Assembly (NCBI GenBank): GCA_027062365.1
Contig: JAMOTK010000006.1
Coordinates: 1-57,631, forward strand
Length of the DNA: 57,631 nucleotides
Direction of reading: 5' to 3'
From: Sulfurovum sp.
Lineage (GTDB): Bacteria > Campylobacterota > Campylobacteria > Campylobacterales > Sulfurovaceae
The position numbers and the translations under genes are program-made. Position 1 is the stretch's first letter, and every line of letters begins with the position of its first letter. Under the pieces are notes generated by a model. The model was given only the letters and a program-made list of their open reading frames with translations, did no database searches and had not been told where the DNA came from. Of this stretch, positions 25,917 through 45,917 are shown piece by piece.

Positions 25917-27507
25917 TTTCTAAACCACCTACACGGCAGTCAACTGGTGCTATCATCGGGCAGAGGACAATCTTCATTTCTAAACCACCTACACGGTAGT
26001 CAACACGAAGTTAAAAAGAGGTATTTTGAGTTAAATTTTCTAAACCACCTACACGGTAGTCAACAACTACTGTTCTTCATACTCTAGCTAAGGGTATTTC
26101 TAAACCACCTACACGGTAGTCAACTGCATGGTGCCTATTATTTAACCACCTGGTATTTTCTAAACCACCTACACGGTAGTCAACTGCCACTTCAGCGATA
26201 CAACACTTTCCCACTTTTTCTAAACCACCTACACGGTAGTCAACATACAAAAATGCTCAAAGACTGCCAAGAATTTTTTCTAAACCACCTACACGGTAGT
26301 CAACGTTAAAGTGTCTATGAATAGTGAGCCAATTAATTTCTAAACCACCTACACGGTAGTCAACGCTATTTCCAAATTCTTCTATCGCTCTTTAATTTTC
26401 TAAACCACCTACACGGTAGTCAACATATTCGCATCTTTTGCATTGTTTTCTCATAATTTCTAAACCACCTACACGGTAGTCAACATAGAGAGTGATGAAA
26501 TACGCTATACCTTGGCATTTCTAAACCACCTACACGGTAGTCAACATGATGATAGTATTATTGCTGATGTTTATGATTTTCTAAACCACCTACACGGTAG
26601 TCAACAGTATATGAAAGTGTGGTACGCCGTCCTTGTGGTTTCTAAACCACCTACACGGTAGTCAACGTAGATACGTTTGTAAGTACTTCACTCTCAATTT
26701 TCTAAACCACCTACACGGTAGTCAACCTGTGATGTTCTCTAATACAGCCTTATACTTTTTTCTAAACCACCTACACGGTAGTCAACGGTAGTATGATGAA
26801 AAAAATTTACTACGAAGTTTTCTAAACCACCTACACGGTAGTCAACCAATACTAATAATAGCAATAAAACAAACAAAATTTCTAAACCACCTACACGGTA
26901 GTCAACAATGCAAAAGACGAAAGCCAAAGAGAGGTTAATTTCTAAACCACCTACACGGTAGTCAACATTAATCCCCATTTTCATGTTTTTTTGTAGCCTT
27001 TTCTAAACCACCTACACGGTAGTCAACCAAACAATGTCTACAAAGCTAAAGCCATACTATTTCTAAACCACCTACACGGTAGTCAACGAAATACAGTTTT
27101 AGTAGATGATGAAGATTTCTTTCTAAACCACCTACACGGTAGTCAACCTCTGGCAATAAAGCCATCAAAACCCCCAATATTTCTAAACCACCTACACGGT
27201 AGTCAACTGCGTCAGGATAGATGTTAATTATCCTTTGTGTTTCTAAACCACCTACACGGTAGTCAACCGTTGGAACTTCTACTGTTGCCACTTGCGTCAT
27301 TTCTAAACCACCTACACGGTAGTCAACATAATGCTTTCAGTGGTATACATTTGCATAGTTTTCTAAACCACCTACACGGTAGTCAACAATAGTTTGATAG
27401 ATAGAGGTTTACTACGTGATTTCTAAACCACCTACACGGTAGTCAACCTGGTGGTGGAGTTGTTTCATTATTCTCTGGTTTTCTAAACCACCTACACGGT
27501 AGTCAAC
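25917..27507 (-). CRISPR. Type I-F CRISPR array, 27 repeats and 26 spacers
   Basis: Twenty-seven 28-bp repeats are spaced by 32-bp spacers, with three spacers of 33. In transcript sense (minus strand) the repeat begins GTTGACTACC and ends GGTTTAGAAA, close to known I-F repeats, and forms the I-F stem ACUACC/GGUGGU. The copy at 25917 has one substitution (CAGTCAAC for TAGTCAAC on the plus strand), as expected at the old, leader-distal end. The leader is therefore at the 27507 side, next to cas6f. Several spacers resemble the inovirus prophage in this window (see findings). The ORFs that run through the array are artefacts of the regular repeat. Confidence 0.99.
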
Positions 27508-27656: not shown

Positions 27657-28259
27657 TTAAAACATGGGTAGGGTTGAGGTGTTGCTTAGTCCGTAGGTGT
27701 TGAAATTTCCTTTGTGTTCTTTTGGGCTTTCTTTTTTGACGATAAATATTTTCATTGGATGACCATTGGATAGGCTTTTGATGTTGAGGAAAGGTAGTTT
27801 GTTTTTTTCTTTTAACTTCTTGTACTTTTCTTCGGTGTTTGCATAAAGGCTTAGGGCTTCTTCTTCTGAAATATTGTTGCGTTTGGCGTGGCGTTTGGCT
27901 AGTCTTCGTATTTCTGCGTTGGATTTGAATTGTTTTCTTCCAAAAGAGGCAAAGGTTTTTATCTCTTTGGGGACTTCTTGGATTTTGGATATTTCTATAT
28001 AGTCCAATAGTCTAGCCAACCAATGATTGATATTTAATTTTTCTAATTCTTCTTTTGTTTCTGCAAAAATTCTTAGCACAGACCCAAGAGGAAAAGCCTC
28101 CTTTTGATACTGTGGGAATGCTAGACCTATAGAAAGCTTATTGTCTGCGTCTCTTCTCTCAACCAAAGCTAAGTGTATTTGAAGATACACTTTTTGCCAA
28201 ATGAAGCCAAGCGTTATCTCTGTGTCTGTGATAAGTTTTATGTCTGTGTAATAGTGCAT
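27657..28259 (-). CDS. cas6f: Cas6f (Csy4) crRNA endoribonuclease
   Basis: A 200-residue type I-F processing nuclease. It cuts each pre-crRNA repeat at the base of its hairpin and stays bound to the 3' end. The N-terminus MHYYTDIKLI and the catalytic histidine at residue 29 (VYLQIHLALV) align with the Pseudomonas Csy4 arrangement (His29). An arginine-rich helix, FKSNAEIRRLAKRHAKRN, should bind the repeat stem, and the C-terminus YGLSNTSTLPMF matches the family end. It is the last gene of the csy operon, six bases after csy3, and abuts the array leader. Confidence 0.96.
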   Translation of the reverse strand: MHYYTDIKLITDTEITLGFIWQKVYLQIHLALVERRDADNKLSIGLAFPQYQKEAFPLGSVLRIFAETKEELEKLNINHWLARLLDYIEISKIQEVPKEIKTFASFGRKQFKSNAEIRRLAKRHAKRNNISEEEALSLYANTEEKYKKLKEKNKLPFLNIKSLSNGHPMKIFIVKKESPKEHKGNFNTYGLSNTSTLPMF

Positions 28260-28265
28260 AATGGA

Positions 28266-29285
28266 CTACTTATCACTCTGACCAAAGACACCACCACGCA
28301 CAAGTACTGCCATTACATAGTGTTCTTCTTCTTTACTCTCTAGCGTTGTTCCTGTGGCAAAGTTATCAAAAAGCGTATAAAAGTCTTGCTTGTCTTTTGG
28401 GGTTCTAAAGGCTTTTCCCATATTGGTAACTGCCCCATAAGGCTCTATGGCGATTGCCCCATTTCCTGCTTCTGTAGCAAATTCTTTATACCAAGTATCA
28501 ATACTTCGCAAGGCATTGCCTATCTTTTGGGAGTGCATAGAGGCGATGCCATCTACTTCATAAAGAACTTTACCTTTTTTGCCTTGACCTTTGTCCAATA
28601 CAAGCTCTTCACTAGGATAAACCTCTTGGGCTTTGCCTACTTTGGCATAAGTCGTGACTTCTAACATCAAAAAATCGTCATCAGAGGCTAGGGCATCGGC
28701 TATTTTTTTTCCTAAGTCTATGACTTCTTTATTTTGACTTTGCATAGAACGCACAGAAAAGCTTTTGGCATCAAATGTCCAACTCTTCTGTGAGATTAAA
28801 TCTTTGATTTTCACTTCTATAGACTCTGTACCGACTCTGTTTCTCCACAAAAATCGTCCATTGGCCAAATTGAGAGCATAACGCAATCCAAGTTCTTTAA
28901 ATCCTTCTTTTTCTATATATCCTGTAACTGCTTCTTCATAAGTTCTTAAAAACTCTGTATTGTTACACGCAGAGGGGTCTTTGATGCCACCTAAGACTTT
29001 GAGCGTAAAGTTCAAAACCAAAGTATCTTGTTCGGGTGCTAAGGCACAAGAATCTACCGTTTGTAAGTTGGCTTTTTCTACTTCTGCATTGAGTTTGGCA
29101 GGGTCATTTTTAATCGCAGGTTTTAGACGATTTGCAATCGTACCTCTCACAGATTTTTCTACCAATTTCAACGCTGTTTTATCCGTTTTGTTCTCCCAAG
29201 TTGTGCCGTACATCATGCCATCTGAAGGTACTAATTTTTTCTCAAATGCTAAAACCGATGCTATTTTACTTTTTACTTTTGCCAT
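28266..29285 (-). CDS. csy3: Csy3 (Cas7f) backbone protein
   Basis: The type I-F Cas7-family protein, six copies of which normally coat the spacer part of the crRNA and set the six-nucleotide periodicity with every sixth guide base flipped out. I start at the ATG at 29285 (MAKVKSKIASVLAFEKKL, 339 residues) because AAAGGA lies seven bases upstream. The upstream ATG at 29324 would overlap csy2 and adds a non-conserved NKIITINSKEN stretch. Typical motifs include LVPSDGMMYGTTWE and FLWRNRVGTE. Located between csy2 and cas6f. Confidence 0.95.
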   Translation of the reverse strand: MAKVKSKIASVLAFEKKLVPSDGMMYGTTWENKTDKTALKLVEKSVRGTIANRLKPAIKNDPAKLNAEVEKANLQTVDSCALAPEQDTLVLNFTLKVLGGIKDPSACNNTEFLRTYEEAVTGYIEKEGFKELGLRYALNLANGRFLWRNRVGTESIEVKIKDLISQKSWTFDAKSFSVRSMQSQNKEVIDLGKKIADALASDDDFLMLEVTTYAKVGKAQEVYPSEELVLDKGQGKKGKVLYEVDGIASMHSQKIGNALRSIDTWYKEFATEAGNGAIAIEPYGAVTNMGKAFRTPKDKQDFYTLFDNFATGTTLESKEEEHYVMAVLVRGGVFGQSDK

Positions 29286-29301
29286 GTTATTTTCCTTTGA
29301 A

Positions 29302-30198
29302 TTAATTGTTATTATTTTGTTCACAGAGATAGAGACCGTGTTCTTTATCTACTGAATATTGCCATAAAATCTCATCTAAAGACTCAATTTTGTAGGGCAT
29401 TTTAAACTCTCCTAATGTCACAAGAGCTTCAGCGAAACAGTGAAGTTTCTCTGCGTCTCGTTGGTTCTTGGCTTTTCCTAGTTCAGAAATACCTTGAAAG
29501 CCTACGGCTATAGGTACTATCCATCCTGATGCTTTTCTCTTTTTTGTCCATAGTGTTTTTTCGTTTTTTTGTTCACAACTGTTATGAATAACAAGATAAT
29601 CCAAAAGTGCATCTATGCCATCTAGTCCTCTCTCCATAGCCTCTATCATCAAATCTTTTCTCTCTACAAGTACATAGCCTGGCATAAGTTTACGACGCAC
29701 ACGAGCCAACTGCTCATCATCTCTACTTTTGACTTTCAAAGTCTCTATGTTTTTAAAGTTGAGTATATCTCCACCTGCTAGTTTCATTCTGGAGTGTAGA
29801 TGATGGGCTACTCTAGCTTCAAATTTTTCTTTATCCTCTCTACTTATCCCCTCATATTCAATAAGCAACGAAACATCAAGATGTATTCTAGCCTCTTCTA
29901 TAAAAGCAGGTCGTTTACCCTCTTTATCTAAGGGATTACTTGTACCAATAATAGAATGAACATAATCGCCTACGCCTTTATGGGTCTGTAAATTGGCATG
30001 ATGGCTCACAACAGCTATAGCATTAAATCTCAAATCTTTAAATCCATCGGCGTTTAATTTGCGTTGAAGTGCATGAGTAGCACCAAGCCAAGCCGTCATC
30101 GCAGGAAATCCGATAGTAAAAGGGCTAGACAGAGCATTGGCATTTTGTACTTTGATATGAGAAAGAAGTAGTATATTTTTGATTTTTGATTTTTTCAT
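29302..30198 (-). CDS. csy2: Csy2 (Cas5f)
   Basis: A 298-residue Cas5-family protein that caps the 5' handle of the crRNA with Csy1. It begins with the usual ILLLSHIKVQNANALSSPFTIGFPAMTAWLGA, the Csy2 N-terminal signature, and has the basic segment LARVRRKLMPGYVLVERKDLM in the middle. The gene overlaps csy1 by four bases (ATGA). Length is typical of the family. The C-terminal part (YSVDKEHGLYLCEQNNNN) extends to just before the csy3 start. Confidence 0.95.
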   Translation of the reverse strand: MKKSKIKNILLLSHIKVQNANALSSPFTIGFPAMTAWLGATHALQRKLNADGFKDLRFNAIAVVSHHANLQTHKGVGDYVHSIIGTSNPLDKEGKRPAFIEEARIHLDVSLLIEYEGISREDKEKFEARVAHHLHSRMKLAGGDILNFKNIETLKVKSRDDEQLARVRRKLMPGYVLVERKDLMIEAMERGLDGIDALLDYLVIHNSCEQKNEKTLWTKKRKASGWIVPIAVGFQGISELGKAKNQRDAEKLHCFAEALVTLGEFKMPYKIESLDEILWQYSVDKEHGLYLCEQNNNN

Positions 30199-31472
30199 CT
30201 TAACGCCTCTCGCTGTTGTTCAACAGTATCTTTAATATTTTCAAACTCCCATTTTCCATTAATTTCTATGGCATTTTTATTTAAAACTTTTTTGTAACTT
30301 TGCAATATCCACGAGCTTATATCTTTTATGATTTCATCAAGCCAAAGCTCTTCTTCTCTTTCTTCTTCTTTTGATGAAAGTAACCAAATCTTTTGATAAC
30401 TTTTGAGTGTAGAGGTTTTTTCGTAATAGAGTGCATTACTCACAGCTCTTACAGCCCACATCTGCTCTATGATTTTATCTATTAGACTTTCATAATGATA
30501 GTTCTTTGCATTACGAATATCTATATTTGTATAGTCTTTTATTTGATAAATAGCATGTAAATCCATAAAAATATATTTGTATTTCCAAGGGTTCATAGAC
30601 TCTCTAAAAAAATCAGACTTTGGAAAAGGGGTATCTCTTTTTTCTATATTTGGAGGCATGGTATTGAGTAACTGTGCTTTACCTCCATTTTGAGAATTGA
30701 GTACAGATATATTTTGAGGCTTAGTCCCTCCATAGCCTATGGTAGTGAGATTATATATCTCAGCAAATCCATCTTCAGAAAATTGACTATTTTTTCTTGC
30801 TTCTCTTAAGGCTTTAAGATGCTTTTTCCCCTCTTCACCAGCTCCAAAACGGATAGTATCAAGCCTTTTTCGTAAATGGAATATCATAGCAGAGTTACTT
30901 AGAATTGAGAGTAGATGATAATCCTCATCTACAGGGAAATAGACCTGTTTTATCTTAGAACTTGTCAAAGACTCACTTGAACTCTCTATCATCTTCAAAA
31001 ACTCTTCTTTGAGTACATCATAACTTTTTGATTTAATGTTCAAAAGAGCTTTTGCCAAAGGAGTATCTTTTTGTATATGTTCTATAAGCACTATTCCATC
31101 AGGCATCATAAGATTTAAAAACTTATGCACATCCAACGCGGCTGCATTCCCCAAAGCATCTTTTTGTACCTCTACATTTCCACTGCGTAATAATCCATCA
31201 ACCCTATACTCTTTTGAGGCGATAATAGATGTCACATAGCCATTTTTATTTTTCCTAGCACTAGGATGTGAAAAGGTGCAAGGGTGTGTAGCCATAGATA
31301 TTTGTCCTGCTCTTTTGGAGGCATTGGGTAACCAAACTTCCAAAGAAAATTCCATGGCACTCTTTTCATAGAGTTCTAAAACCTCATCTTCTTCCATAGA
31401 AGCTTTGAGCTTTTTTTTCAACCAAGCTTCTTTTCGTTCATCAAAAAACTTAGTAATCACTTCATTTATCAT
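30195..31472 (-). CDS. csy1: Csy1 (Cas8f) large subunit
   Basis: A 425-residue Cas8f protein that, with Csy2, recognises the CC PAM and starts DNA unwinding. Recognisable segments are LPNASKRAGQISMATHPCTFSHPSARKN (about residues 48-75), VDGLLRSGNVEVQKDALGNAAALDVHKFL, and the conserved TIGYGGTKPQNISVLNSQNGGKAQLLNTMPP. A good ribosome binding site (AAGAAAGGAAAAATT) precedes the ATG. It heads the csy1-csy2-csy3-cas6f operon. The upstream 446 bases hold its promoter, a mini-CRISPR and a toxin-antitoxin candidate. Confidence 0.96.
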   Translation of the reverse strand: MINEVITKFFDERKEAWLKKKLKASMEEDEVLELYEKSAMEFSLEVWLPNASKRAGQISMATHPCTFSHPSARKNKNGYVTSIIASKEYRVDGLLRSGNVEVQKDALGNAAALDVHKFLNLMMPDGIVLIEHIQKDTPLAKALLNIKSKSYDVLKEEFLKMIESSSESLTSSKIKQVYFPVDEDYHLLSILSNSAMIFHLRKRLDTIRFGAGEEGKKHLKALREARKNSQFSEDGFAEIYNLTTIGYGGTKPQNISVLNSQNGGKAQLLNTMPPNIEKRDTPFPKSDFFRESMNPWKYKYIFMDLHAIYQIKDYTNIDIRNAKNYHYESLIDKIIEQMWAVRAVSNALYYEKTSTLKSYQKIWLLSSKEEEREEELWLDEIIKDISSWILQSYKKVLNKNAIEINGKWEFENIKDTVEQQREALR

Positions 31473-31507
31473 AATTTTTCCTTTCTTGAATTTATTTGCT
31501 ATACTTA

Positions 31508-31536
31508 TTCAGTATCTTATTACTGAAATGATAGCA
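31508..31536 (-). promoter_or_regulatory. csy operon promoter core with an operator-like palindrome
   Basis: On the minus strand TGCTATCAT (31536-31528) is an extended -10 element about 55 bases before the csy1 ATG. It is followed by a perfect 7-bp dyad, TTCAGTA-6-TACTGAA (31508-31527), at the probable transcription start. An alternative -10, TATAAT, is at 31566-31561. The dyad could be a repressor site. Neither start point is proven. Confidence 0.5.
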
Positions 31537-31557
31537 TAGATATTCTTAAATTATCAA

Positions 31558-31586
31558 AAAATTATAAATAATAAATAGTAGTATGG
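31558..31586 (-). promoter_or_regulatory. Probable self-target of the mini-CRISPR guide in the csy1 promoter
   Basis: On the minus strand a CC dinucleotide at 31586-31585, the type I-F PAM, is followed by ATACTACTATTTATTAT and then TTATAA. This matches the pseudo-spacer at 31622-31648 at 20 of the first 23 positions: 1-5, 7, 9-17 and 19-23. The site covers one candidate -10 and lies at about -37 to -63 of the other promoter, so bound Csy complex would block csy transcription. Confidence 0.72.
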
Positions 31587-31593
31587 TTTAACT

Positions 31594-31676
31594 ATATAAA
31601 TCTACCTACACGGTAGTAAACGCTTTTATAGATAATAAATCGAAGTATTTTCTAAGCTACCTATACGGTAGTTTAA
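31594..31676 (-). CRISPR. Degenerate two-repeat mini-CRISPR (CreR-like guide RNA gene)
   Basis: Two decayed copies of the array repeat flank a 27-nt pseudo-spacer (31622-31648). The first copy (31676-31649) matches 22 of 28 bases and keeps the hairpin CTACC/GGTAG plus the 5'-handle CTTAGAAA, while its unused 5' end has decayed. The second (31621-31594) matches 21 of 28 and keeps the 5' part with the hairpin, while its unused handle has decayed. Both changed G to A at repeat position 19, turning a U-G stem pair into U-A. This is the pattern expected if Cas6f still excises one guide from it. TATAAA at 31696-31691 or TATAAT at 31681-31676 may drive it. Confidence 0.78.
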
Positions 31677-31705
31677 TTATAAATAATTGCTTTATAATTA
31701 GTTTA

Positions 31706-31714
31706 TGATATAAT
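31706..31714 (+). promoter_or_regulatory. Extended -10 promoter for the antisense RNA
   Basis: TGATATAAT is an exact TGnTATAAT extended -10. TTGCTT at 31687-31692, 16 bases upstream, is a weak -35. The expected start at about 31721 coincides with the base of the closing stem of the structured RNA. Confidence 0.7.
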
Positions 31715-31720
31715 TTTATT

Positions 31721-31857
31721 AGTTGGGGCAGGTAGAGAGGTGTAACTCTCTACAAGCTTTTAATACGCTTTTGTTGCTAGAATTAACAGCAAAAGTATAA
31801 CAATTATAATGTTGTGCAACATTGTTATATCCTTTTTCAAGGGCTGACCCTGTCCCA
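31721..31857 (+). ncRNA. Structured antisense RNA, Sib-like antitoxin candidate
   Basis: Starting seven bases after TGnTATAAT, the plus-strand RNA can fold with a closing stem GGGGCAGG (31725-31732) with CCTGTCCC (31849-31856). Three hairpins lie inside: GTAGAGAG/CTCTCTAC, CTTTTGTT/AGCAAAAG and TATAAC plus AATGTT/AACATT plus GTTATA. Two pairs are G-U only if the plus strand is the RNA (they would be A-C on the other strand), which supports this sense. It covers the whole 20-codon toxin-like ORF and its ribosome binding site on the minus strand. Size, structure and overlap resemble Sib antitoxins. No clear U-tract terminator is seen, so the 3' end is approximate. Confidence 0.65.
31760..31822 (-). 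CDS. Ibs-like 20-residue hydrophobic toxin candidate
   Basis: The ORF ATG-TTG-CAC... encodes M-L-H-N followed by the hydrophobic core IIIVILLLLIL and the tail ATKAY. Length, uninterrupted Ile/Leu/Val core and C-terminal tyrosine resemble the Ibs toxins of Escherichia coli, which insert in the inner membrane and depolarise it. AAGGA lies seven bases before the ATG, a well-placed ribosome binding site. The ORF is co-directional with, and 97 bases downstream of, cas2-3, so it can be read from the cas1-cas2-3 message or from an AT-rich -10 (31878-31871). It is fully overlapped by a structured opposite-strand RNA. Toxicity is inferred. Confidence 0.6.
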   Translation of the reverse strand: MLHNIIIVILLLLILATKAY

Positions 31858-31870
31858 CCTTCTCCTTCAC

Positions 31871-31878
31871 AATATATA
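31871..31878 (-). promoter_or_regulatory. Possible promoter of the toxin-like ORF
   Basis: On the minus strand TGTATATATT offers a -10-like TATATA/TATATT preceded by TG. A start near 31864 would give a leader with GGAGAAGGTGGGACAGG complementary to the antisense RNA. The AT-rich context makes this a weak prediction. Confidence 0.35.
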
Positions 31879-31918
31879 CAAATGATAATCGCCCAACTAG
31901 AACTAGAAGTATATCTAA

Positions 31919-34900
31919 TTAGACTTTTACCAATCCAAATATATCACTATACTCATACTTTTCACTTTTTTCCCAAATAAAACTTAACTCTCCATATCGT
32001 AGAGAAATCTCTTTTTTACTTTTCTCTTTTAGCATTGCCTTTTCTTTAATACTCGTATTATAATCTCTAAGAAACCAACTATTATGCTCCAAACGCTTAT
32101 CCTCTTCAATTCGTGTTATCCTAAGTCCAAATTCACGATTGATAGGATTGTCAAATATATCTACAATTATCTTAGCAAATTTATCATATTGTGTAAAAAA
32201 ATACGCCTCACTCTTCTCATCATAAGTCAAAAAAACTTTTATAGAGGGTGAACTCTTTCTAAAGGGATGGAAATAATAGGGGTGAGCTGTAAGAAACCAA
32301 CTCTCGTCCAAGTATCCTTGTAGCGTATCAGCTCCCTCATCATCATAAGAGGTCAAATACTCTTCTGTTTGATAGTGTTCCAAGTCACTTAGAGACTCTT
32401 TTTCTCTTAATTTAAGAGGTTTTTGTATCCTTTCTGTGGCATCTAATCGTTTTCCAAGGGCTTTTGTATCAATAAGATGAGAGAGTTTATGTGTTTTGAG
32501 TGTTAGACCCTCTTCATACCCAGGCTTTTGAAACGAGCGTTTAGTATCATCATTGTATTGAAAAGATTTTAGATTATATTCCATCAGTCCAATATTTGGC
32601 TCATTTATAGTCTGCCCCCTATGCCTAGATACGCGTCCTGCAAGTTGTATGATAGAACGATAAGAAGATGGTTCTATTATCGCCCAGTCAAAATCATGGT
32701 CTCGTCCTACCTCTTCTACAGGTGTGGCTACGACTATAAAAAGCATATTATCTGCTTTTGCATTATCAAGATGAGAGCGAATAATCGTATTCTTAAAAGC
32801 TTCTGCTTCTTCACCCTCTTTCTCTTTTCTTTTTAATACACTATCCAAATGTCTCTCTTGTTCATGCCGTAGAAGTAGCACTTGATTGGAATGGTATGCC
32901 ATCACTCTCACTTCTATTTCATCAGGATACTCTTCAGCCATGAGATATTTTGCCAAGGCAACACAAGGCTTTATATTTGCGACTCGAAGCACTCCAAAAG
33001 AGACAGAAATATCTGTTTTTATATCTTTTGTATTGTGTTGATAATGTTTGTCTATCATCGCATTTTTGATTTTTTCAAAATAGCTCTCTTCTTCTCCTCC
33101 TATCTCATCGTGGCACTCTATTATTTCTAATTTTCGTTTAGCGACTCCTTTGGCTAAATTCTTTACCCGTTTATCTACAAAGGCTTTATGTTTGCTATTA
33201 TACGCTTCTATCGTCGTGATAGATTCTGCCTTTGTCCCAAACTCATCTATCCATGCACAGATTATAGGGCTTTTGGCTTCACGCGTTTTGGCAAAGAGTT
33301 CCCAACCTTTTTGATAGGCATTAAAATATCCCTCTGCCAAATCAGGAGGTATGGTAGCAGATGAAATCATCACTTTTCTGCCCAACAACCCTGCAAGATG
33401 TACCAGTCTTGCAATAGCCACAAGGTCAGAACCAGAGAAATCATCTATCTCATCTATGACCAAATCTGAACTCATCAAACGAAGAGAGGGCAAGATATAT
33501 TTTCCTCCTCTTTTGCTAGTTACAGCACCCATTAAGTGGTCTATAGTACATACAAGCACAGGAGCATACAAAAATTGTCTATCTCTCTCTCTTCTTAAAA
33601 TAGTATTTAAGCCCTCTTCAGGAATAGCACAATCAAAATCTATATACTCATCTAAAAGGCTTTCTATAGATTCCGAACCACTATCTACAGACTCTTGTGC
33701 TTCTGCTATTTTAGTCTCTTTATGTAATTCCAATACAGCTTTAGAACCGATAAGTACAGCCAACTCATCATCTTCTAAGCGTATTTTATCTCTATACTCA
33801 TCACCTGTTTGTAGTGTCAAAGTCCGAAGACCCAAAGCCAATATATATCTTAGGCTTTTATTATCATTAGATACGGCTCTCATTATCTTTGCATTAGCAA
33901 AAGTTTTACCACATCCCGTACTAGCCATATTGACAGCAAAAAACCCTTCTTTTTCTTTGCTATCAAGTTGAGGTTTTATCATCTGTACAGCCTTGTCTTG
34001 CCAAGAGTAGGCTTTGGGACTGGCTTTTTTTAATGCTCTATTATCCACCACTATCGGTGGCTCTTTCTCAAAAGCAGGAAGTAGATGCACTGTTTTTAAA
34101 GCACTTGCCATTACACCAAATAGATGTTCATCTAGTTTCTGTTTCATCTGCTTTGTTTTGGAGTCTGTATTGGCAAAAAGTCCGATATTATCACGCCAAG
34201 AGTTATCATTATCTTGTGAAGAATAATGGTGGTCACCGAGCATCAGACAAAGCCTAGAGTGATGAAGAACCACTCTATAGCTACCATCATCTATAGACTC
34301 ACTTAGTAAATCAGAGTTTATTATCATCCTACTAGACCATTTTTTGACACTCTGTAACCATTTACTAGCATTATTTAAAAGTCCATTAGGAAACTCAAAA
34401 CATCTCTCCACAAGTGCTTGATACTCCTTTTCTTCTCTTCTATTTTCATATCCCCAAGATTGCCTTATCTTTTTGAGTATATCTTCTATACTATATGCCT
34501 CTATTCCTTGCCATTTATCTTCAATCTCAGCTAAAGAAGTAGAATAACTAGGCAGACGATGATGAGAAACTATAAGCCAAAGTATGAGTTTCGCAGAAGA
34601 TGGTAAATCTTTTAATACACTCTCTTTCTTACGCAACTCTTTGAGTGATAAGAGTAGAGATTTTTCATCTATCTCACCTCTACTCAAGCGTTCTAGCCAA
34701 GTTGTAGGATTTTGTGAGATAAAAGCAGAAAGGAGCATACAAGATATCCACTCATGACGGATAGGGTCGCCTTTGATTTTGCTATTTGGTTTGAGTTTTG
34801 ATTGAAAAAGAGCCGTAGCTTTGCCCCAATCATGAAACAAAGCAGAAAGAGCAGTCAGAGACTTAATCAGCTCCAAATATTTCCAATCACTCTCTTTATA

Positions 34901-35200
34901 CTTATCCAAAATGGTCTTTTTTGTTCTATTGACAGGCACAATCCCCTCATCATTAAACTTATCTCTATTCCCCACTATCCATACAAGTTCAGTTCTGCTA
35001 CGGCTTCGTATCCAATGGCAACTTATAGCAGAACTTTTTGATGCTGTTTGTCTAAGTAGTTTTTTTACAGCCTTTAACCCCTCCATAGTCATAATCGTCT
35101 GCCAAGTATTAGAGCCTATTCTATCGGCAAAAGAGTCCAATACTCTGCGTGTCTTTTTGAGTGCGTTTTTCTCACACTCGGAGATGAAAGTAACTATCAT
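31919..35200 (-). CDS. cas3: Cas2-3 fusion nuclease-helicase (type I-F)
   Basis: A 1093-residue protein with Cas2 fused to the N-terminus of Cas3, the hallmark of type I-F. Residues about 1-95 are the Cas2 part (MIVTFISECEKNALKKTRRV). The HD nuclease motif is ALFHDWGKATALFQ near residue 117. The helicase has Walker A MASTGCGKTFANAK, a DEAD-box variant VIDEIDDFSGSDLV, motif III SSATIP and motif VI QLAGRVSRHRGQ. It shreds target DNA and, with Cas1, acquires spacers. The start overlaps the cas1 stop (ATGA). All catalytic motifs are intact, so the system looks functional. Confidence 0.97.
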   Translation of the reverse strand: MIVTFISECEKNALKKTRRVLDSFADRIGSNTWQTIMTMEGLKAVKKLLRQTASKSSAISCHWIRSRSRTELVWIVGNRDKFNDEGIVPVNRTKKTILDKYKESDWKYLELIKSLTALSALFHDWGKATALFQSKLKPNSKIKGDPIRHEWISCMLLSAFISQNPTTWLERLSRGEIDEKSLLLSLKELRKKESVLKDLPSSAKLILWLIVSHHRLPSYSTSLAEIEDKWQGIEAYSIEDILKKIRQSWGYENRREEKEYQALVERCFEFPNGLLNNASKWLQSVKKWSSRMIINSDLLSESIDDGSYRVVLHHSRLCLMLGDHHYSSQDNDNSWRDNIGLFANTDSKTKQMKQKLDEHLFGVMASALKTVHLLPAFEKEPPIVVDNRALKKASPKAYSWQDKAVQMIKPQLDSKEKEGFFAVNMASTGCGKTFANAKIMRAVSNDNKSLRYILALGLRTLTLQTGDEYRDKIRLEDDELAVLIGSKAVLELHKETKIAEAQESVDSGSESIESLLDEYIDFDCAIPEEGLNTILRRERDRQFLYAPVLVCTIDHLMGAVTSKRGGKYILPSLRLMSSDLVIDEIDDFSGSDLVAIARLVHLAGLLGRKVMISSATIPPDLAEGYFNAYQKGWELFAKTREAKSPIICAWIDEFGTKAESITTIEAYNSKHKAFVDKRVKNLAKGVAKRKLEIIECHDEIGGEEESYFEKIKNAMIDKHYQHNTKDIKTDISVSFGVLRVANIKPCVALAKYLMAEEYPDEIEVRVMAYHSNQVLLLRHEQERHLDSVLKRKEKEGEEAEAFKNTIIRSHLDNAKADNMLFIVVATPVEEVGRDHDFDWAIIEPSSYRSIIQLAGRVSRHRGQTINEPNIGLMEYNLKSFQYNDDTKRSFQKPGYEEGLTLKTHKLSHLIDTKALGKRLDATERIQKPLKLREKESLSDLEHYQTEEYLTSYDDEGADTLQGYLDESWFLTAHPYYFHPFRKSSPSIKVFLTYDEKSEAYFFTQYDKFAKIIVDIFDNPINREFGLRITRIEEDKRLEHNSWFLRDYNTSIKEKAMLKEKSKKEISLRYGELSFIWEKSEKYEYSDIFGLVKV

Positions 35201-36153
35201 AAGAGTTTGACTTTCCCATAATACATAGAAGCCTTTTTCACCTCAGCAAACATAAAATCCAAGGCTTTATGTTCTATAAATTTTTGTAAAACATAATATC
35301 TAAACTCTTTTTCATTCATGCCTTCTTTGGCACAGATAAAAGCCGAAGGTAAGACAATGGCATCTTTGATGAGGTCTGCTACATCAAAAACCAATGCCCC
35401 TCGTCGTGTCTTGCCATGCATCAAAGCAAAACCATGAGAGATACCCAAAACCCATAGTGTCGTAGCTCCTAATCCATAAGCCAAATAATTGCCATGATTT
35501 AAAAAGCTATTCGTCTCATCAGGATTATCATGGTCTCGTTTAAAGTTTTTCAGGTTTGTCTTTTGAGCAGAATAGGCATAAAGTTTTTTTGTTAGCTCTG
35601 CTTCAAGGGTGAGTAGTTTATTTACATTATACGCACCTTCTATATCTAACAATGCTTTTTCTAATAGGCGTTTGAGTCTATCATCATCTACATCAAATCC
35701 TGCAAATTTGAGTTCTTTGTCTTTTGCCCATATTTTTTGTATAAAGCCTATTCGTGCCATTTGAATTCTTTTAGCACTTGCAAGTCTTTTGTCCTCTTCA
35801 AACCAAAAATTCATCCACCCTTGAATATAATCCGTCGGACGGTATTCACTTTGAGGAGTAAGCCATTCTATCTCTGTTCCCATAATTAGAGGCGTAGCAC
35901 CACTCCCCGAAAAGCCAACAAGCACACCTGCACTTGCCAACATACGCATAGCAGCTTGTGTGATAGATGTACCTGTACCTAATAATAAACAAGTGGTATT
36001 GGCAATAGGGATATTCCAATATTGATATTCTTCTTTTGCTTCGGTGAGATAAAGCACTCTTCCATCTTTTTGCATCACACGACACTTTTCAAGATAATAG
36101 ATATTGGCTCGTTTGGAGTGAAGTATGGCTTTGAGGTCTGTGAGTTGTTCCAT
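35197..36153 (-). CDS. cas1: Cas1 integrase (type I-F)
   Basis: A 318-residue I-F Cas1, the integrase that inserts new spacers. Recognisable parts: LKAILHSKRANIYYLEKCRV at the start, LLGTGTSITQAAMRMLASAGVLVGFSGSGATPL, NHGNYLAYGLGATTLWVLGISHGFALMHGKTRRGALVFDVADLIKDAIVLPSAF with the catalytic Glu-free/His/Asp region, and a helical C-terminus. The glutamate of the active site should be in ELTKKLYAYSAQ or nearby. It is first in the cas1 and cas2-3 unit. The upstream gap to ribBA is only 55 bases, so its promoter must be compact. Confidence 0.96.
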   Translation of the reverse strand: MEQLTDLKAILHSKRANIYYLEKCRVMQKDGRVLYLTEAKEEYQYWNIPIANTTCLLLGTGTSITQAAMRMLASAGVLVGFSGSGATPLIMGTEIEWLTPQSEYRPTDYIQGWMNFWFEEDKRLASAKRIQMARIGFIQKIWAKDKELKFAGFDVDDDRLKRLLEKALLDIEGAYNVNKLLTLEAELTKKLYAYSAQKTNLKNFKRDHDNPDETNSFLNHGNYLAYGLGATTLWVLGISHGFALMHGKTRRGALVFDVADLIKDAIVLPSAFICAKEGMNEKEFRYYVLQKFIEHKALDFMFAEVKKASMYYGKVKLL

Positions 36154-37576: not shown

Positions 37577-37661
<85 letters not shown>

Positions 37662-37822
37662 TAATCACTTTTTTTATAGAACCTATATTCCTTCATTCGG
37701 TGCAGTCACTGATTTTATCTCATTTCAATACATATTCATAAAAAATATTCATGTACAAGCTAAAATAAACACTTTTAATTTTTAATCCATACCTAAGCAT
37801 AAACAAAAATCTTTATATTTTT

Positions 37823-38065
37823 TTATTTTTTTAAAATATCTTTTATGCAAAGAAAAATATCTTCTTCAATAATAGTATATGATTTTCCTATATCTATATC
37901 ATATTCTTTTCTAATATTTCTTCCTAACGATCTTTTTAAATAGCGTTTAAATCCACCACTCTTTCCAAATTTATATCCGTCTATTAGAATAGAATTTATT
38001 TTTTCAAAAATGATTTGGATTTCGTTATCTGTAAATTCTAATTCTAATAAGTCTTTGGTTTTCAT
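37823..38065 (-). CDS. Phage hypothetical protein, 80 residues
   Basis: A small, charged, Ile/Lys-rich protein (MKTKDLLELEFTDNEIQII...) without membrane span. It is the last minus-strand gene of the prophage, one base after the upstream small gene, so co-translated. The basic middle (KSGGFKRYLKRSLGRNIRK) could bind nucleic acid. No family recognised. In inoviruses this position next to the replication gene often holds regulators or host-takeover proteins; in a prophage beside an active CRISPR locus an anti-CRISPR is also conceivable, but nothing in the sequence shows it. Confidence 0.65.
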   Translation of the reverse strand: MKTKDLLELEFTDNEIQIIFEKINSILIDGYKFGKSGGFKRYLKRSLGRNIRKEYDIDIGKSYTIIEEDIFLCIKDILKK

Positions 38066-38066
38066 C

Positions 38067-38309
38067 TTAAACCCTTTTCATTTTATCAAATATCTTAACT
38101 ATCTCAGACTTTTCTATAACATCATATATATCAAGCTCTTTAACATAGTTTGAGATAGTTTTAACTTCAGGTTCCAAAGGTAAATCCCAATATCCATCCT
38201 CTACATTAGTGCTATCCATGGTTAGTATAAATTGATTACCTCTCTTCATAATTCTTAAAGTTACAGTTCGACCCATTTTAGTTTTAATATCTACTTTTTT
38301 TATTGTTCT
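38067..38309 (-). CDS. Phage hypothetical protein, 80 residues
   Basis: I begin this gene at the ATG at 38309 (MRTIKKVDIKTKMGRTV) because AAAGGA lies five bases upstream. The longer frame starting at 38354 runs into the terminal repeat of an inserted MITE and its first residues (LYAEWL) are encoded by that repeat. The product is small and beta-prone, with VTLRIMKRGNQFILTMDS suggesting a compact binding domain. It has no membrane span. It lies between the MITE and the 80-residue terminal gene. Function unknown. Confidence 0.65.
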   Translation of the reverse strand, partial: RTIKKVDIKTKMGRTVTLRIMKRGNQFILTMDSTNVEDGYWDLPLEPEVKTISNYVKELDIYDVIEKSEIVKIFDKMKRV

Positions 38310-38332
38310 CATAGTGTTTCCTTTCATTTTTC

Positions 38333-38484
38333 GTAACCATTCAGCATACAACAATTTTTTCTTAAACTAATATCTATTTTAAATAAAAAGTCACTATTAA
38401 TATAGAAAAAGCTTATTGTTTAAGCTAAAAAGTACATAAATATACTCTAATTAGAGGTTTTTTGGAGTGATGCTGAATGGTTAC
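38333..38484. mobile_element. 152-bp MITE with 15-bp terminal inverted repeats
   Basis: GTAACCATTCAGCAT at 38333-38347 is inverted exactly at 38470-38484. The same eight bases, CATTTTTC, flank both ends (38325-38332 and 38485-38492), a clean target duplication. No transposase is inside, so it is a non-autonomous element. The same terminal repeat occurs at 57449-57463 beside a transposase fragment. GTAA ends with an 8-bp duplication fit IS66-type mobilisation, though the family is not proven. The insertion reshaped the 3' end of the replication gene. Confidence 0.82.
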
Positions 38485-40021
38485 CATTTTTCATATTCAA
38501 ATCAATCTCACTAAAATCACATCTAAAATCATCTCTAAACTCTTCTATATCTAAATAATCCCCATGTTTTAAACTCCTATCGATTAATGTATTATACGCA
38601 AGTGCATAACGTTCTGGAGCATACTTATCAAAATCAAAATAATTACAAAAGTCTAAAAGTTCTAAATCAGACATTTGTTTTACAGGCTTAATAAATTGTT
38701 CTTTCTCTAAATAAAGAATATTTCCATCTATATCAAAAAAATCAATAGTATCAGGTGCAGAAATTAAAGAAAAATTATCTATATTTTTAAAAACAAAAAG
38801 TGAACCATCATCTAAAGATTTAAAAATAGAATACACCGTAGGTAATTTAGGAAAAACAATTTCATATCTATCTAAAATACTAAAAGTAGGAGGTCTAAGG
38901 TCTCCAAACATAATAAAGTCTAAAGATTTTAAAAGTAACTTTTTAACACTATTCTTACTTTTACCCATGGATGCTACTATCTTATTATTATTAAAAATAA
39001 TGACTCGACCATCTTTTCCCAAAATAATACGACCATAACCATCATCAATCTTAAAATAATTATTTTCTAAATTTCTCTCATAAAGACCATTTTTCTTTAA
39101 TTGTGAGAGCATAAACCAATCATCTTCTAAAACAGCTATTTTCCCATAGACATCTTGAGCCAATAAAGTATGTGTAGTAATCACTCTAGGGATTCTATTA
39201 TGCACATACCAAGCTTGAAGGTAATCTAATTTTTTTTCCTCAAGTAAATTAATAAACGATTTGAAAAGATATTTCAGAATATAAGAAACAGCTGAATAAA
39301 CTTCTGTTTGAAAACCATGAGTTTCATAAATGCCCTCTGCTATCTTTGAAGCATTACGACTATGTTTACCCTTAGTATTCTTTTTTGTAAGCTTTAGAGT
39401 ATTTCTAGGAGCAGGAAAGCATTTAGCAAAATCAATATAAATAGATGCTATAGAGTGTTCTGGTACATACATTAAAATATGAAAATGTGGTACACCATCT
39501 TTATGTGGTTCTGTGACCCTTATACTCATGTAATCAAAACCCTCTTTTCTTATATTTCTAAGAGAAGAAGACATATTAAAATTATGAAGTTGATGAGATA
39601 AAATCTTATACAAATCTTTAGGAGTCAATGAATTTACACGTGAAGTCATATAATCCCTATAAAAACCATTTCTATCGCTATTAGGTATATGTCTCTTATA
39701 ACTTTCTTCTAGCTCTAGAGTGTATCTTGTATAATTACCTTTAAGCAAATCTCTAAAAAATCCATCCAAAGTAACTGTAAGAAAAATAGGAACAAGATTT
39801 TTAGAAATACCAAGGCTTACAAAAGTATTAACTTTATTGTAAATCCTAGCATAATAGCGTTCTGAAATGTTAGCAGCATAAGAAACATCTAAAAACGTTT
39901 TCTCTTCACCTGTAGTATCTGATACAAAAGTATTTGATTCTAAGAAATTCTTTTGTTTTTTTATTTTTTCCCTAGATTTAAATAAATCTCTTTGAGTTAA
40001 TCCATAAGTAACAGATGACAT
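38447..40021 (-). CDS. Inovirus replication initiation protein (pII-like HUH nickase)
   Basis: A 524-residue rolling-circle initiator. The metal-binding HUH motif is GVPHFHILMYVPE (about residues 175-187), and the tyrosine motif VSYILKYLFKSF (about 245-256) has the Y-x3-Y-x2-K layout of phage GPA-type endonucleases. It nicks the plus origin so that single-stranded genomes are displaced. The start (ATG at 40021) overlaps the secretin stop by one base. The last 13 or so codons (GNHSASLQKTSN) come from the MITE terminal repeat, so the native C-terminus has been replaced. A CRISPR spacer (26606-26638) resembles the HUH region. Confidence 0.88.
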   Translation of the reverse strand: MSSVTYGLTQRDLFKSREKIKKQKNFLESNTFVSDTTGEEKTFLDVSYAANISERYYARIYNKVNTFVSLGISKNLVPIFLTVTLDGFFRDLLKGNYTRYTLELEESYKRHIPNSDRNGFYRDYMTSRVNSLTPKDLYKILSHQLHNFNMSSSLRNIRKEGFDYMSIRVTEPHKDGVPHFHILMYVPEHSIASIYIDFAKCFPAPRNTLKLTKKNTKGKHSRNASKIAEGIYETHGFQTEVYSAVSYILKYLFKSFINLLEEKKLDYLQAWYVHNRIPRVITTHTLLAQDVYGKIAVLEDDWFMLSQLKKNGLYERNLENNYFKIDDGYGRIILGKDGRVIIFNNNKIVASMGKSKNSVKKLLLKSLDFIMFGDLRPPTFSILDRYEIVFPKLPTVYSIFKSLDDGSLFVFKNIDNFSLISAPDTIDFFDIDGNILYLEKEQFIKPVKQMSDLELLDFCNYFDFDKYAPERYALAYNTLIDRSLKHGDYLDIEEFRDDFRCDFSEIDLNMKNGNHSASLQKTSN

Positions 40022-41193
40022 TATAGAACCTCAATTAAGATGTTTATATTTTGTTCTTCAACTTCTTTACTCTTATTTTTAAATAATTCTCCAATGAGTG
40101 GAATATGAGAGATTAAAGGAATAGCTCTATTATTTTCTTTTTTAAACATCTTTTGAATGCCAGTCAATAAAATAGGTGTTCCTTCTTCTACTTTGATAGT
40201 GTTTTTATAGGATATTTTTTGCGTAATAGGACGGTTGTCAGTATTTGAAATAAGCTCTTCCAGGACTAAATCTAAATCAAGAAAAACCCAATTATCTTTT
40301 ATCTTTGGTAAAATGTTTACCTGTAAGCCAATATCTTTATAATCATATTGTTCTGTAACTGAATTGGTTTGACTGTCTACTGTGGCACTAAGTTTAAGAT
40401 AAGGCAAATTAATTACAGAATTTGTAGAAGATTTTTTACCATTGGTAAGCTTAATAATAGGCTCTTGAAATATATCTGAATATCCCCACTCATTCATCAT
40501 CTTTAATGTCAAATCAAAATCAAAAAAAGAGTTAATCTTTATAGTTGCAGGATTATCCGTAAGCAAAGAATCAAAGGCTTTACCTATCGTACCATCAAGA
40601 GAAAGAGAAAAGTCTTTAATATCTGTACCTGACTCTTTTAAATCTTTTTTTCTTACAGCAAATATTGTTATTTTTATAGTTTTAGAAAGTACTTTGTTAT
40701 CTGTTTCTAATAAAATACGTTCAATCGCTTCATGTGTTTCTACATTGGAAGAATAGGCTATCATATCAGATTGTTTCAAATATTTATAATTTACACCAGT
40801 AAATACAGACATAGCCTCAACTACATCTTCATTATTAGTATTCTCAATCTTATACGTATAGTAATGTAATTTATCAACTGGAGAAACAAGAGCAGAAGCA
40901 GGAAGAACTTCACGCTTTTTATCTTTGTAGACAACCTTATAATATGGTGGTTTAGCATTGTAATCTAAACGCATATCATGCTCATCAAGTACATCTGAAA
41001 AAAAAGAATAAATTTCTGTTTTAGATTGATGATTAGCGATATTAAACTCTACAGAATAATCTTTTATATTTTTATCCATGTAAATATTAATTTGTATATC
41101 TTCACTAGCTAAACTAGCTAAGTCCCTAAAAGTAATAGTATTACTTATTAGTATTTGTGTGAGTAGTCCTATCATAACGATTGTCTTTTTCAT
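40021..41193 (-). CDS. Inovirus secretin (pIV-like)
   Basis: A 390-residue protein with a signal peptide (MKKTIVMIGLLTQILIS). An N-terminal N0/N1-like region (about 22-165) precedes the secretin domain (about 195-390), which has FQEPIIKLTNGKKSS, a VNILPKIKDNWVFLDLDLV beta segment and the conserved VEEGTPILLTGIQKM ... IPLISHIPLIGELFKN motif of type II/III secretins. It should form the outer-membrane channel for virion exit. Its start lies 53 bases inside the Zot gene. The leader carries AGGAGCTAACA just before ATG, an initiation sequence repeated before three other phage genes. Confidence 0.93.
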   Translation of the reverse strand: MKKTIVMIGLLTQILISNTITFRDLASLASEDIQINIYMDKNIKDYSVEFNIANHQSKTEIYSFFSDVLDEHDMRLDYNAKPPYYKVVYKDKKREVLPASALVSPVDKLHYYTYKIENTNNEDVVEAMSVFTGVNYKYLKQSDMIAYSSNVETHEAIERILLETDNKVLSKTIKITIFAVRKKDLKESGTDIKDFSLSLDGTIGKAFDSLLTDNPATIKINSFFDFDLTLKMMNEWGYSDIFQEPIIKLTNGKKSSTNSVINLPYLKLSATVDSQTNSVTEQYDYKDIGLQVNILPKIKDNWVFLDLDLVLEELISNTDNRPITQKISYKNTIKVEEGTPILLTGIQKMFKKENNRAIPLISHIPLIGELFKNKSKEVEEQNINILIEVL

Positions 41194-42175
41194 TGTTAGC
41201 TCCTTGAAATAGATGTATAAATTCTGTAGTAGCCATCACTGTGACCACTGCATAATTTTCTGAATAACTTTTAAATGTTAAAAACTTTGAATTTGTTTGG
41301 GTAACCGTAGCATTTAAATCATCTACCAATATATTAATATGATGCTCATTATTTTTACAAGAAAGACTTGAGCAATTCAACTTTATGTATGTAGTGGATT
41401 TTAAAAACGTATTTTTAGATTTATCCTTTAATTCGATTTTTGAAACTTCATCAGGTTCTTCTATATTTAAATCTTTATCAGGTTTAGAAAACAAAGAGAC
41501 AAATCCATTAAGAGTAAAAAGAAAGATAATAAAAAGCCCAATCAAATAGTATTTCAATTTGGCACGAAAGCCACCATCACCCAAATTTGACTCGCCTGAA
41601 GTGTAATAATCAAATACTTCTTTCTTTGGCTTCACTGATTCAGTTTTAAATGCATTCTTACCTATCTTAATATCATCAACATGAGAAAAGTACCTGTACT
41701 CAAGAACCTTAGCTCTTAGACGTTCGGTAGGAGACATCGCAGTAATAACCACATCGCCCAGGTCATGAAATAGAGTGTTTAACTGTTTGCGTGTTTGGGT
41801 AATTAAAAAGATATTTAGATTCACGTGTCTTTGTAATGCAAGGAAAAACATTAAGAAATCTTTTTTCTTTGTATTATTAAATCCATAGATATGGGCTTCA
41901 TCAATAAATATAGCACAGTCAGCGATTCCCTTATCTCTTAATGAAATATAAATCTCTTCTTCACTGGTTAAATTCTCTTGGGATAAGTTATATAAATCTT
42001 CTATAAAACTAAGCCAATCCCCCATCTTATCTCTATCTAAAAAAGTATACCCAGCCACAAACTTTGTAAATTCAATATTAGAAAATACAGGACGAGTCTT
42101 TAGCTCTTCTAGTATCAATGTCACAGCCTTATAAGATTTACCTGAACCTGTCTTGCCAAATACATACGTAATCAT
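41141..42175 (-). CDS. Zot-like assembly ATPase (pI)
   Basis: A 344-residue inner-membrane ATPase. Walker A is VFGKTGSGKSYKAV at the N-terminus and Walker B is CAIFIDEAHIYGF (about residues 90-102), as in the zonular occludens toxin/pI family. A single membrane span (YLIGLFIIFLFTLNGFVSL) near residue 215 separates the cytoplasmic ATPase from a periplasmic tail rich in Lys, Asn and Thr. It drives extrusion of the filament through the secretin. The start overlaps the pVI-like gene by four bases and the C-terminal codons overlap the secretin gene. Confidence 0.93.
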   Translation of the reverse strand: MITYVFGKTGSGKSYKAVTLILEELKTRPVFSNIEFTKFVAGYTFLDRDKMGDWLSFIEDLYNLSQENLTSEEEIYISLRDKGIADCAIFIDEAHIYGFNNTKKKDFLMFFLALQRHVNLNIFLITQTRKQLNTLFHDLGDVVITAMSPTERLRAKVLEYRYFSHVDDIKIGKNAFKTESVKPKKEVFDYYTSGESNLGDGGFRAKLKYYLIGLFIIFLFTLNGFVSLFSKPDKDLNIEEPDEVSKIELKDKSKNTFLKSTTYIKLNCSSLSCKNNEHHINILVDDLNATVTQTNSKFLTFKSYSENYAVVTVMATTEFIHLFQGANNEKDNRYDRTTHTNTNK

Positions 42176-42477
42176 ACAGAATCCTTAAAATAAGAAAGTG
42201 CAAATTTAGCCCAAAAACCCAAAGCAACAATTTGGAAGAAAATACCCAAAGCAGGAAAAACACCAATCACATTTATAGCGTAAGCATTGCAACCGTCTAA
42301 CCCTGCAAAAGAATAATTTCTAATATAAGACAAAAAGTAATCTACAAAATAAATAATCAACGAAGAAAAGAAAAAGAAGAAAGCCAAACGAGCAGCTATC
42401 TTAATACTCTTTTCTAATCCACTACCAAATATCTTTTTAACTGCTTCTATTAAAGCCGATACAATCAATCCCCACAT
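42172..42477 (-). CDS. Minor virion protein, pVI-like
   Basis: A 101-residue membrane protein with three hydrophobic segments (about 23-45, 60-75 with NAYAINVIGVFPALG, and 76-95). The size and place between the pIII-like adsorption gene and the Zot gene are those of filamentous-phage gene VI. It overlaps both neighbours, by one base upstream and four downstream. It would cap the end of the filament together with pIII. Sequence identity to known pVI is not claimed. Confidence 0.8.
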   Translation of the reverse strand: MWGLIVSALIEAVKKIFGSGLEKSIKIAARLAFFFFFSSLIIYFVDYFLSYIRNYSFAGLDGCNAYAINVIGVFPALGIFFQIVALGFWAKFALSYFKDSV

Positions 42478-43844
42478 TACATACCACCTCCACTAAGTAC
42501 CAAAGCCACAGCACCAACAACAGCAATAAAATATAAGATAGGAGAAACTACAGATAAATTTGAAACATGTTTAGAAACAGGTATAGGAACATGTACCCCT
42601 AATTTTGGAATAGAGATTATAGGATCTACACACGTGCCAGTAGGTGCATTGAAAGTTACAGCTGGAGAGTAATTAGAAAATTGTTGCTTAATAGTAGAAG
42701 AAAGTTCACCTGATGTCTGCTCTACTTGCTCACTAAAATCTTCATCATCATTGGCTTCAGCAGGAATATCATCTAAATCATCTAAAGAATCCTTTATGTC
42801 TGTCAATAACTCTTCATTTTTTACAGAAGCATCATCAATATGTTGAGATACATTAGCTAAGTCATTAGTATTTTGTGCTGTAGAATCTGATATTAAAGTA
42901 GCCAAATTACTTAATGAGCTATTAATTGAATCCCTGGAGTCATGAATGCTAGATACTATAGCACCTTCCCCTGACAAAGACTCTTTTAAATCATTTAATA
43001 TACTGTTTGTCTCTGTATCTGTACCATTGTTTTCGGTTGGGTCTATTGGCTCTGTGGTGTTGGTGTCAGGGTTTTCTGTCTCATTGTTTTCAATAGTAGC
43101 ATCTGTTGGGTCTGTCGTATCAGGGTCTATTGGGTCTGTGCCGTCTGGGTCTGTCTCATTGTTTTCAGTTGAATTATTTTCAGTTGAAGTAGTAGAACCA
43201 TCAGGGTCGGTTGGGTCGGTGTCAGGGTCTGTTGGGTCTGTAGTGTTGGTATCAGGGTTTTCTGTCTCATTGTTTTCTATTGGTGGTGGGATTGTTTCGT
43301 TACCATCATCTCCATCAGGCAAACACTTCCAAATACTAAAAGGATTATTAGTAGGATAAGGAAGATCTCCATCAGAACAATAACACATCGGCTGAGTATT
43401 CCTAATAATAGCATCAATATTAGGGCAAGGTTCAAGACATCCATTATTACCCACAACGGCAAGGTCACCTTCACAACCGTCATCAACACAAGTACCTGTA
43501 TCATCCCTGATATAACCTATATCACATTCAGTATCATCTACACAAACCCCATTTTCATCCATACTAGAACCATCGGAACAAGTTCCACTAACGTATCTAT
43601 AAACTTTTATAACATAATCTCTTTGACAACCTCCATGATCATTAGCATCACCTACACATGTTTCAATCGTATCTTGATAACCATTCCCGTCACAATCTAG
43701 AGAGTGCACAGGTGGATAATATTGAGAAGAAAATCCAAAAACTTCTTTAATTAAAACCGTGGTGCTATTTTTAGGCAAAGGACAATCCTCAGGATAACCT
43801 GCAAATGCAAAAAAAGAAAAGACAAAAAATAGTAAAAATCTCAT
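42477..43844 (-). CDS. Adsorption protein, pIII-like
   Basis: A 455-residue protein with a signal peptide (MRFLLFFVFSFFAFA). Residues about 18-180 are cysteine-rich, with EGF-like CDGNGYQDTIETC and CVDDTECDIG runs. Then comes a low-complexity Asn/Asp/Thr/Pro/Glu linker (about 185-275, NNETENPD and TDPTDPD repeats), a coiled region, and a C-terminal membrane anchor (ILYFIAVVGAVALVLSGGGM). This is the layout of the receptor-binding tip protein of inoviruses. AGGAGCTAACT precedes its ATG. Three CRISPR spacers resemble this gene. The repeats in the linker suggest rapid receptor-linker evolution. Confidence 0.87.
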   Translation of the reverse strand: MRFLLFFVFSFFAFAGYPEDCPLPKNSTTVLIKEVFGFSSQYYPPVHSLDCDGNGYQDTIETCVGDANDHGGCQRDYVIKVYRYVSGTCSDGSSMDENGVCVDDTECDIGYIRDDTGTCVDDGCEGDLAVVGNNGCLEPCPNIDAIIRNTQPMCYCSDGDLPYPTNNPFSIWKCLPDGDDGNETIPPPIENNETENPDTNTTDPTDPDTDPTDPDGSTTSTENNSTENNETDPDGTDPIDPDTTDPTDATIENNETENPDTNTTEPIDPTENNGTDTETNSILNDLKESLSGEGAIVSSIHDSRDSINSSLSNLATLISDSTAQNTNDLANVSQHIDDASVKNEELLTDIKDSLDDLDDIPAEANDDEDFSEQVEQTSGELSSTIKQQFSNYSPAVTFNAPTGTCVDPIISIPKLGVHVPIPVSKHVSNLSVVSPILYFIAVVGAVALVLSGGGM

Positions 43845-43871
43845 AGTTAGCTCCTATAAAAATAAATTAAA

Positions 43872-45915: not shown

Positions 45916-45917
45916 GA

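Follow-up and report, generated by a model that had tools for sequence, protein, structure and literature searches.

How can a bacterium carry an integrated virus beside a CRISPR array whose oldest spacer resembles that virus's own adsorption gene? We examined this in a 57,631-nucleotide stretch of DNA from Sulfurovum sp. (contig JAMOTK010000006.1, assembly GCA_027062365.1), hereafter "the window". With a probability of roughly 0.85, we think that the type I-F locus took spacers from several members of a single inovirus group and that the resident prophage is a diverged lineage of that group, tolerated via mismatch and without an anti-CRISPR.

The type I-F locus and its neighbouring inovirus

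The CRISPR array (25917–27507, minus strand) contains 27 repeats of 28 nt and 26 spacers, with the Cas6f-type repeat hairpin and 32-nt spacers which characterise type I-F1. The repeat hairpin reached −8.7 kcal/mol on the minus strand vs −2.4 kcal/mol on the plus strand, so guides appear to be read from the minus strand, placing spacer 26 (25945–25976) farthest from the leader and making it the oldest. This direction is also backed by the end repeat which flanks spacer 26 (25917–25944), the only variant repeat in the array. The cas operon (27657–36153, minus strand) consists of open reading frames throughout: cas6f (27657–28259), cas7f (28266–29324), cas5f (29302–30198), cas8f (30195–31472), cas2/3f (31919–35200) and cas1f (35197–36153). 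PADLOC matched cas1, the fused cas2/3, cas8f, cas5f, cas7f and cas6f with best E-values of 4e−57 to 2e−289, and the proteins cover the I-F models almost end to end. Judged by its gene set, the locus is a type I-F1 CRISPR-Cas system which looks complete. The top PADLOC model for Cas1 was named Cas1fv, despite the standard Cas8f/5f/7f/6f effector set.

Within the family, Cas7f was found in 9 of 175 genomes including our own, indicating that the I-F locus is patchily distributed. The closest Cas7f proteins belong to another genus (86, 85 and 83%, vs 75 and 71% within the same genus), and the locus may have arrived by transfer. As a result, the oldest spacer is possibly older than the arrival of the locus and may have been gained in another host. 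The initial annotation stated that this host had acquired immunity against a close relative of its prophage; as far as the host is concerned, this is likely rather than certain. Among 78 genomes belonging to the genus, the array repeat was found in 1, and a near-identical repeat in another genus (L117) accompanies 79 spacers, none of which are shared with our array.

The inovirus (37607–48880), which begins approximately 1.5 kb from where cas1 starts, is bounded by 55-bp direct repeats at 37607–37661, the 3′ part of tRNA-Met, and at 48826–48880, and carries a tyrosine integrase (46399–47307, minus strand), as expected of an integrated element. The genes expected of an inovirus are present in order on the minus strand: rep, encoding an HUH replication initiator (38447–40021, Pfam Phage_GPA), a secretin (40021–41193, Pfam), a Zot/pI ATPase (41141–42175, Pfam), a pIII-like adsorption gene (42477–43844) and a small major coat protein-like gene (44918–45190, PHROG, E = 1.5e−4). 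The adsorption gene is assigned by architecture only, the label "pIII" reflecting gene order together with a signal peptide, linkers of low complexity and a membrane segment at the C-terminus, all judged by eye; its protein had no Pfam matches and no convincing PHROG matches. A single copy of this type of Rep was found in the genome.

Spacers matching one inovirus group

Outside the array, the best match to spacer 26 in the window was at 43760–43791 (minus strand) within the pIII-like gene, with 26 of 32 bases identical; the runner-up matched at 20/32. The guide is preceded at this site by TCC, giving a CC PAM at 43792–43793 (GG on the plus strand), and the mismatches fall at guide positions 4, 14, 19, 20, 22 and 23. 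Match, PAM and mismatch positions all agree with the initial annotation. Read in the frame of the gene, spacer 26 encodes EDCPLPDDST and the prophage EDCPLPKNST, which agree in 8 of 10 residues; three of the six mismatches (4, 14 and 19) are silent, while those at 20, 22 and 23 turn DD into KN. The site sits directly after the apparent signal peptide. The N-terminal part of the protein (first 189 residues) lacked homologues when 397 further genomes from the order were searched, a search of 120 genomes with the protein returned only itself, and a motif of the EDCPLP type was absent from the matching place in ten relatives' loci, where the upstream genes were inspected. This suggests that the source of spacer 26 was close to the resident at the pIII-like gene. 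Because the frame, the PAM and this otherwise orphan protein segment agree, spacer 26 most likely derives from a virus related to the resident inovirus, and to this extent the earlier claim of a related source stands.

Spacer 26 is accompanied by further inovirus-matching spacers which the initial annotation had missed. Spacer 15 (26606–26638, minus strand) encodes the Rep HUH motif HKDGVPHFHI, identical in all ten residues to the peptide of the prophage Rep, and matches rep at 39474–39506 (minus strand) with 25/33 bases and a CC PAM. Seven of its eight differences are at codon position 3. The eighth opens the next codon, Leu in the prophage, and is therefore probably silent too, the third base of this codon falling outside the spacer. 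CC-flanked matches of at least 24/33 to spacer 15 were found in 14 of the 28 inovirus loci compared (13 relatives and our own prophage), the best being 29/33. As the HUH motif is conserved, spacer 15 points to an inovirus-type Rep and not to a close relative. Spacer 2 (27388–27419, minus strand) reads in antisense as NSLIDRGLLR, which agrees with the consensus of a Rep C-terminal motif, and matches rep at 38562–38593 (plus strand) with 22/32 bases and a CC PAM; in a relative's rep (L073) it matches at 27/32, flanked by GGT and not by CC. The prophage sites of spacers 26, 15 and 2 are their top sites in the window. No spacer had an exact match in the window outside the array, prophage included, and no site with ≤ 3 mismatches to spacers 26, 15 or 2 was found in the genome outside the array; strict self-targeting, at 0–1 mismatch to the own genome, is thus not seen for these three spacers.

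Other spacers are probable or possible members of this set. Spacer 6 (27148–27179, minus strand; probable) shares a run with 21 of 22 bases identical with the start of the coat gene (45170–45191), which lacks a CC PAM. A possible match of spacer 11 (26847–26878, minus strand) at 42509–42540 (22/32, CC PAM) lies in the pIII-like gene, within its AT-rich stretch for the C-terminal membrane segment. Two are probable at the protein level: spacer 14 (26667–26698, minus strand) encodes VDTFVSTSLS, a Rep N-terminal motif agreeing with L056 in 9 of 10 residues (DNA 21/32, PAM CT), and spacer 20 (26305–26336, minus strand) encodes NWLTIHRHFN, a Zot-like motif agreeing with L068 in 7 of 10 residues (top DNA match 23/32 in L063, without CC). 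Spacer 18, which matched L052 at 25/32 with CC, was set aside as being within the null, since 1 of 20 shuffles reached 25, and spacer 1 (pIII linker, or an antisense reading with WWW) was set aside as low complexity despite a protein-level score of 49. No source has been assigned to most of the spacers in the array. Judged by these matches, the array is a log of repeated contact with one Campylobacterota inovirus group, in which spacers 2, 15 and 26 are firm.

We compared these matches to shuffled spacers and to the arrays of relatives. When all 26 spacers were dinucleotide-shuffled 200 times and compared to the window, the maximum was 23 identical bases with CC and 25 without CC; in 400 shuffles against the prophage alone, the CC-flanked maximum was 23, seen once. 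CC-flanked matches of at least 22 bases to the prophage were found for 4 of the 26 spacers, compared to a shuffle mean of 0.04 spacers, and none of the 400 shuffles gave four. A scan of 175 genomes from the family found Rep relatives in 19, our own among them, and Rep searches gave 20 named loci (Sulfurovum, Sulfuricurvum, Sulfurimonas and others) and 6 viral contigs. One named locus, a short Desulfobulbaceae match, was left out; the remaining 25 of 26, together with two further Zot/Rep loci and our own prophage, make up the 28 loci. As a control we used 213 spacers from I-F arrays in six of the eight other genomes with Cas7f, counting matches with ≤ 8 mismatches and CC or with ≤ 6 mismatches in any context. 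The comparison of all 26 spacers to inoviruses which the initial annotation had proposed gave four spacers with a match to any of the 28 loci (spacers 2, 15, 18 and 26) vs 2 of 213 for the relatives' spacers, and 2 of 26 vs 0 of 213 matched our own prophage (CC, ≤ 8 mismatches). Protein-level scores of at least 44 were reached by 4 of our 26 spacers (3 without spacer 1) vs 1 of 213 (P = 0.0005 and 0.004), although it should be noted that the 28 loci were picked via our own prophage's Rep or Zot, which possibly favours our array in these protein-level counts. None of our spacers was shared with the relatives' 213 at ≤ 8 mismatches. The I-F array of one relative (L121) includes spacer 30, whose translation GSGKSYFAVH is a Walker A motif resembling that of inovirus Zot, and spacer 20, which has a 29/32 match in L063 flanked by AC.

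Coexistence of the array and the prophage

From the observed matches, frames, PAMs and open reading frames, we infer acquisition from relatives and tolerance through mismatch. Across the lifetime of the array, the I-F locus would have taken spacers from several inoviruses of one Campylobacterota group, with spacers 2, 15 and 26 as firm samples and spacers 6, 11, 14 and 20 as less certain ones. The resident would belong to another lineage of the same group, differing by 6–10 bases at each CC-flanked site. The crRNAs would have guarded against the source viruses, and Cas2/3 would not be expected to be triggered on the prophage by the crRNAs of this array. The early guide positions are the seed in type I-F, and within positions 1–8 the mismatches are at 4 for spacer 26, at 1, 4 and 7 for spacer 15, at 1, 4, 7 and 8 for spacer 2 and at 2, 4, 5 and 7 for spacer 11. 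Four prophage sites are flanked by CC and all four have at least one mismatch in these positions, so that tolerance requires no anti-CRISPR. In one I-F1 system, PAM-distal mismatches which shorten the R-loop are reported to block Cas2/3 (PMC7296934); combined with the early mismatches, this means that cutting of the prophage is not expected. Exact targeting is a different matter, as I-F guides exactly targeting an integrated Pf1 are described as lethal in PA14 (PMC6813254; see PMC6990116 for a review of self-targeting spacers). What counts against the preferred explanation is the lack of CC at the L073 site of spacer 2 and at the top sites for spacers 6, 14 and 20, along with the many spacers to which no source is assigned.

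The initial annotation suggested that the prophage may have escaped by drift in its adsorption gene. An escape mutant whose own ancestor was the target would fit the single mismatch of spacer 26 (position 4) within the first eight guide positions and the three changes which recode two residues. However, one PAM or seed change can be enough for escape and the PAM is intact; the sites of spacers 26, 15 and 2 differ at 6, 8 and 10 bases in two genes, Rep being equally or more diverged; half of the changes at spacer 26 are silent and those at spacer 15 look so; and the prophage shows no depletion of CC (observed/expected 1.12 vs 1.09–1.11 in the rest of the window). These points make a diverged lineage the more likely identity of the resident, which is not an evident escape mutant; escape by its ancestor is very improbable. 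A coincidental match, or a motif common to an unrelated element, is scarcely credible: viral, genome, phage and plasmid searches gave nothing better for spacer 26, and all that speaks for it is a set of short phage and plasmid matches of 17–22 bases (E 0.3 to 9). Against it speak the shuffles, the reading frame, the PAM and the fact that spacers 15 and 2 independently match the same family of elements. The collections searched, each of which covers part of viral diversity, yielded no exact source for spacer 26, 15 or 2. An exact 30-mer of spacer 26 gave no hits in viral_contigs, and a degenerate pattern spanning the spacer 26 and prophage alleles gave none in genome_contigs or viral_contigs. 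Viral scans with one protein at a time (Rep, pIII or Zot) returned no relatives, although a scan with the Rep alignment did recover them, and neither Zot against phages nor pIII against plasmids gave a match.

Two other explanations assume that the prophage is still recognised. By analogy with PA14 and DMS3, guide 26 might bind it weakly, leading to primed uptake of spacers or to DNA damage at a low level. The CC PAM, with position 4 as the sole mismatch within positions 1–13, would allow this, as would the precedent of PA14 spacer 1, with five mismatches to DMS3 (PMC11406979), and the reports that type I-F primes from imperfect targets and type I-E does so with up to 13 mismatches (PMC4117759). 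We nevertheless consider weak binding unlikely, given the early-guide mismatch and those at 19, 20, 22 and 23, near the start of Cas2/3 action (PMC7296934). Moreover, priming on the prophage would leave exact-match spacers, of which there are none in the window (the rest of the genome having been checked for spacers 26, 15 and 2). A little less likely again is the extended form, in which weak recognition through CC and all but one of the first 13 bases burdens the lysogen with low-level priming or self-damage and the inovirus spacers arose by repeated priming of old imperfect guides on successive relatives. Genuine targeting from which an anti-CRISPR or a silent cas locus shields the prophage is improbable. 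The prophage does hold small genes without family matches, and Roux et al. inferred shielding for near-exactly self-targeted inoviruses (PMC6813254), but here the mismatches by themselves account for tolerance and the cas reading frames are open.

Comparable systems and minor features of the prophage

Tolerance of a diverged resident is, by analogy, a situation of a known kind, comparable to that of P. aeruginosa PA14 and DMS3, where the I-F guide of CRISPR2 spacer 1 is reported to have several mismatches to a prophage in the same cell and to be insufficient for immunity (PMC11406979). An imperfect prophage match with a correct PAM, as in this type of partial self-targeting, is also found here. 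DMS3 is a Mu-like phage for which SOS and biofilm effects are reported, whereas our case concerns an inovirus, with six mismatches at the best site and several group-matching spacers. Inovirus-matching spacers are described as widespread by Roux et al. (1,150 spacers in 42 bacterial families), with self-targeting of a resident inovirus in 45 of 1,429 genomes; that study took 0–1 mismatch, so matches with 6–10 mismatches such as ours would fall out (PMC6813254). In P. atrosepticum, the I-F spacer C2S6 is reported to match the integrated element HAI2 without active interference and to prime uptake from a plasmid, although that match is perfect with a variant PAM, and ours is imperfect with the right PAM (PMC4117759). 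Among titles and abstract openings on inovirus self-targeting, Sulfurovum inovirus spacers and imperfect prophage matches, a body in which subscription papers are mostly not represented, we found no account of this case. The underlying biology is as expected. The locus offers a natural case of a single array with several guides for the same inovirus group and a diverged member of that group beside the cas genes, and it provides defined imperfect targets for gauging I-F mismatch tolerance in a chronic, non-lytic prophage. It also illustrates that codon-aware comparison exposes CRISPR-virus links which are missed by searches at 0–1 mismatch.

Three further features of the prophage were observed. 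The adjacent small genes at 45535–45915 and 45918–46289 are similar and both match one gene in several relatives (e.g. L043 5957–6364), making a tandem duplication likely. The sequence GATGGCTTTATTGCCA at the start of the coat gene (45170–45201) occurs again, minus one base, at L065 4434; it is able to form a small inverted repeat and is maybe a conserved signal. Divergent from the integrase, 47402–47665 encodes a small protein which looks helix-turn-helix-like by eye and is a candidate prophage repressor.
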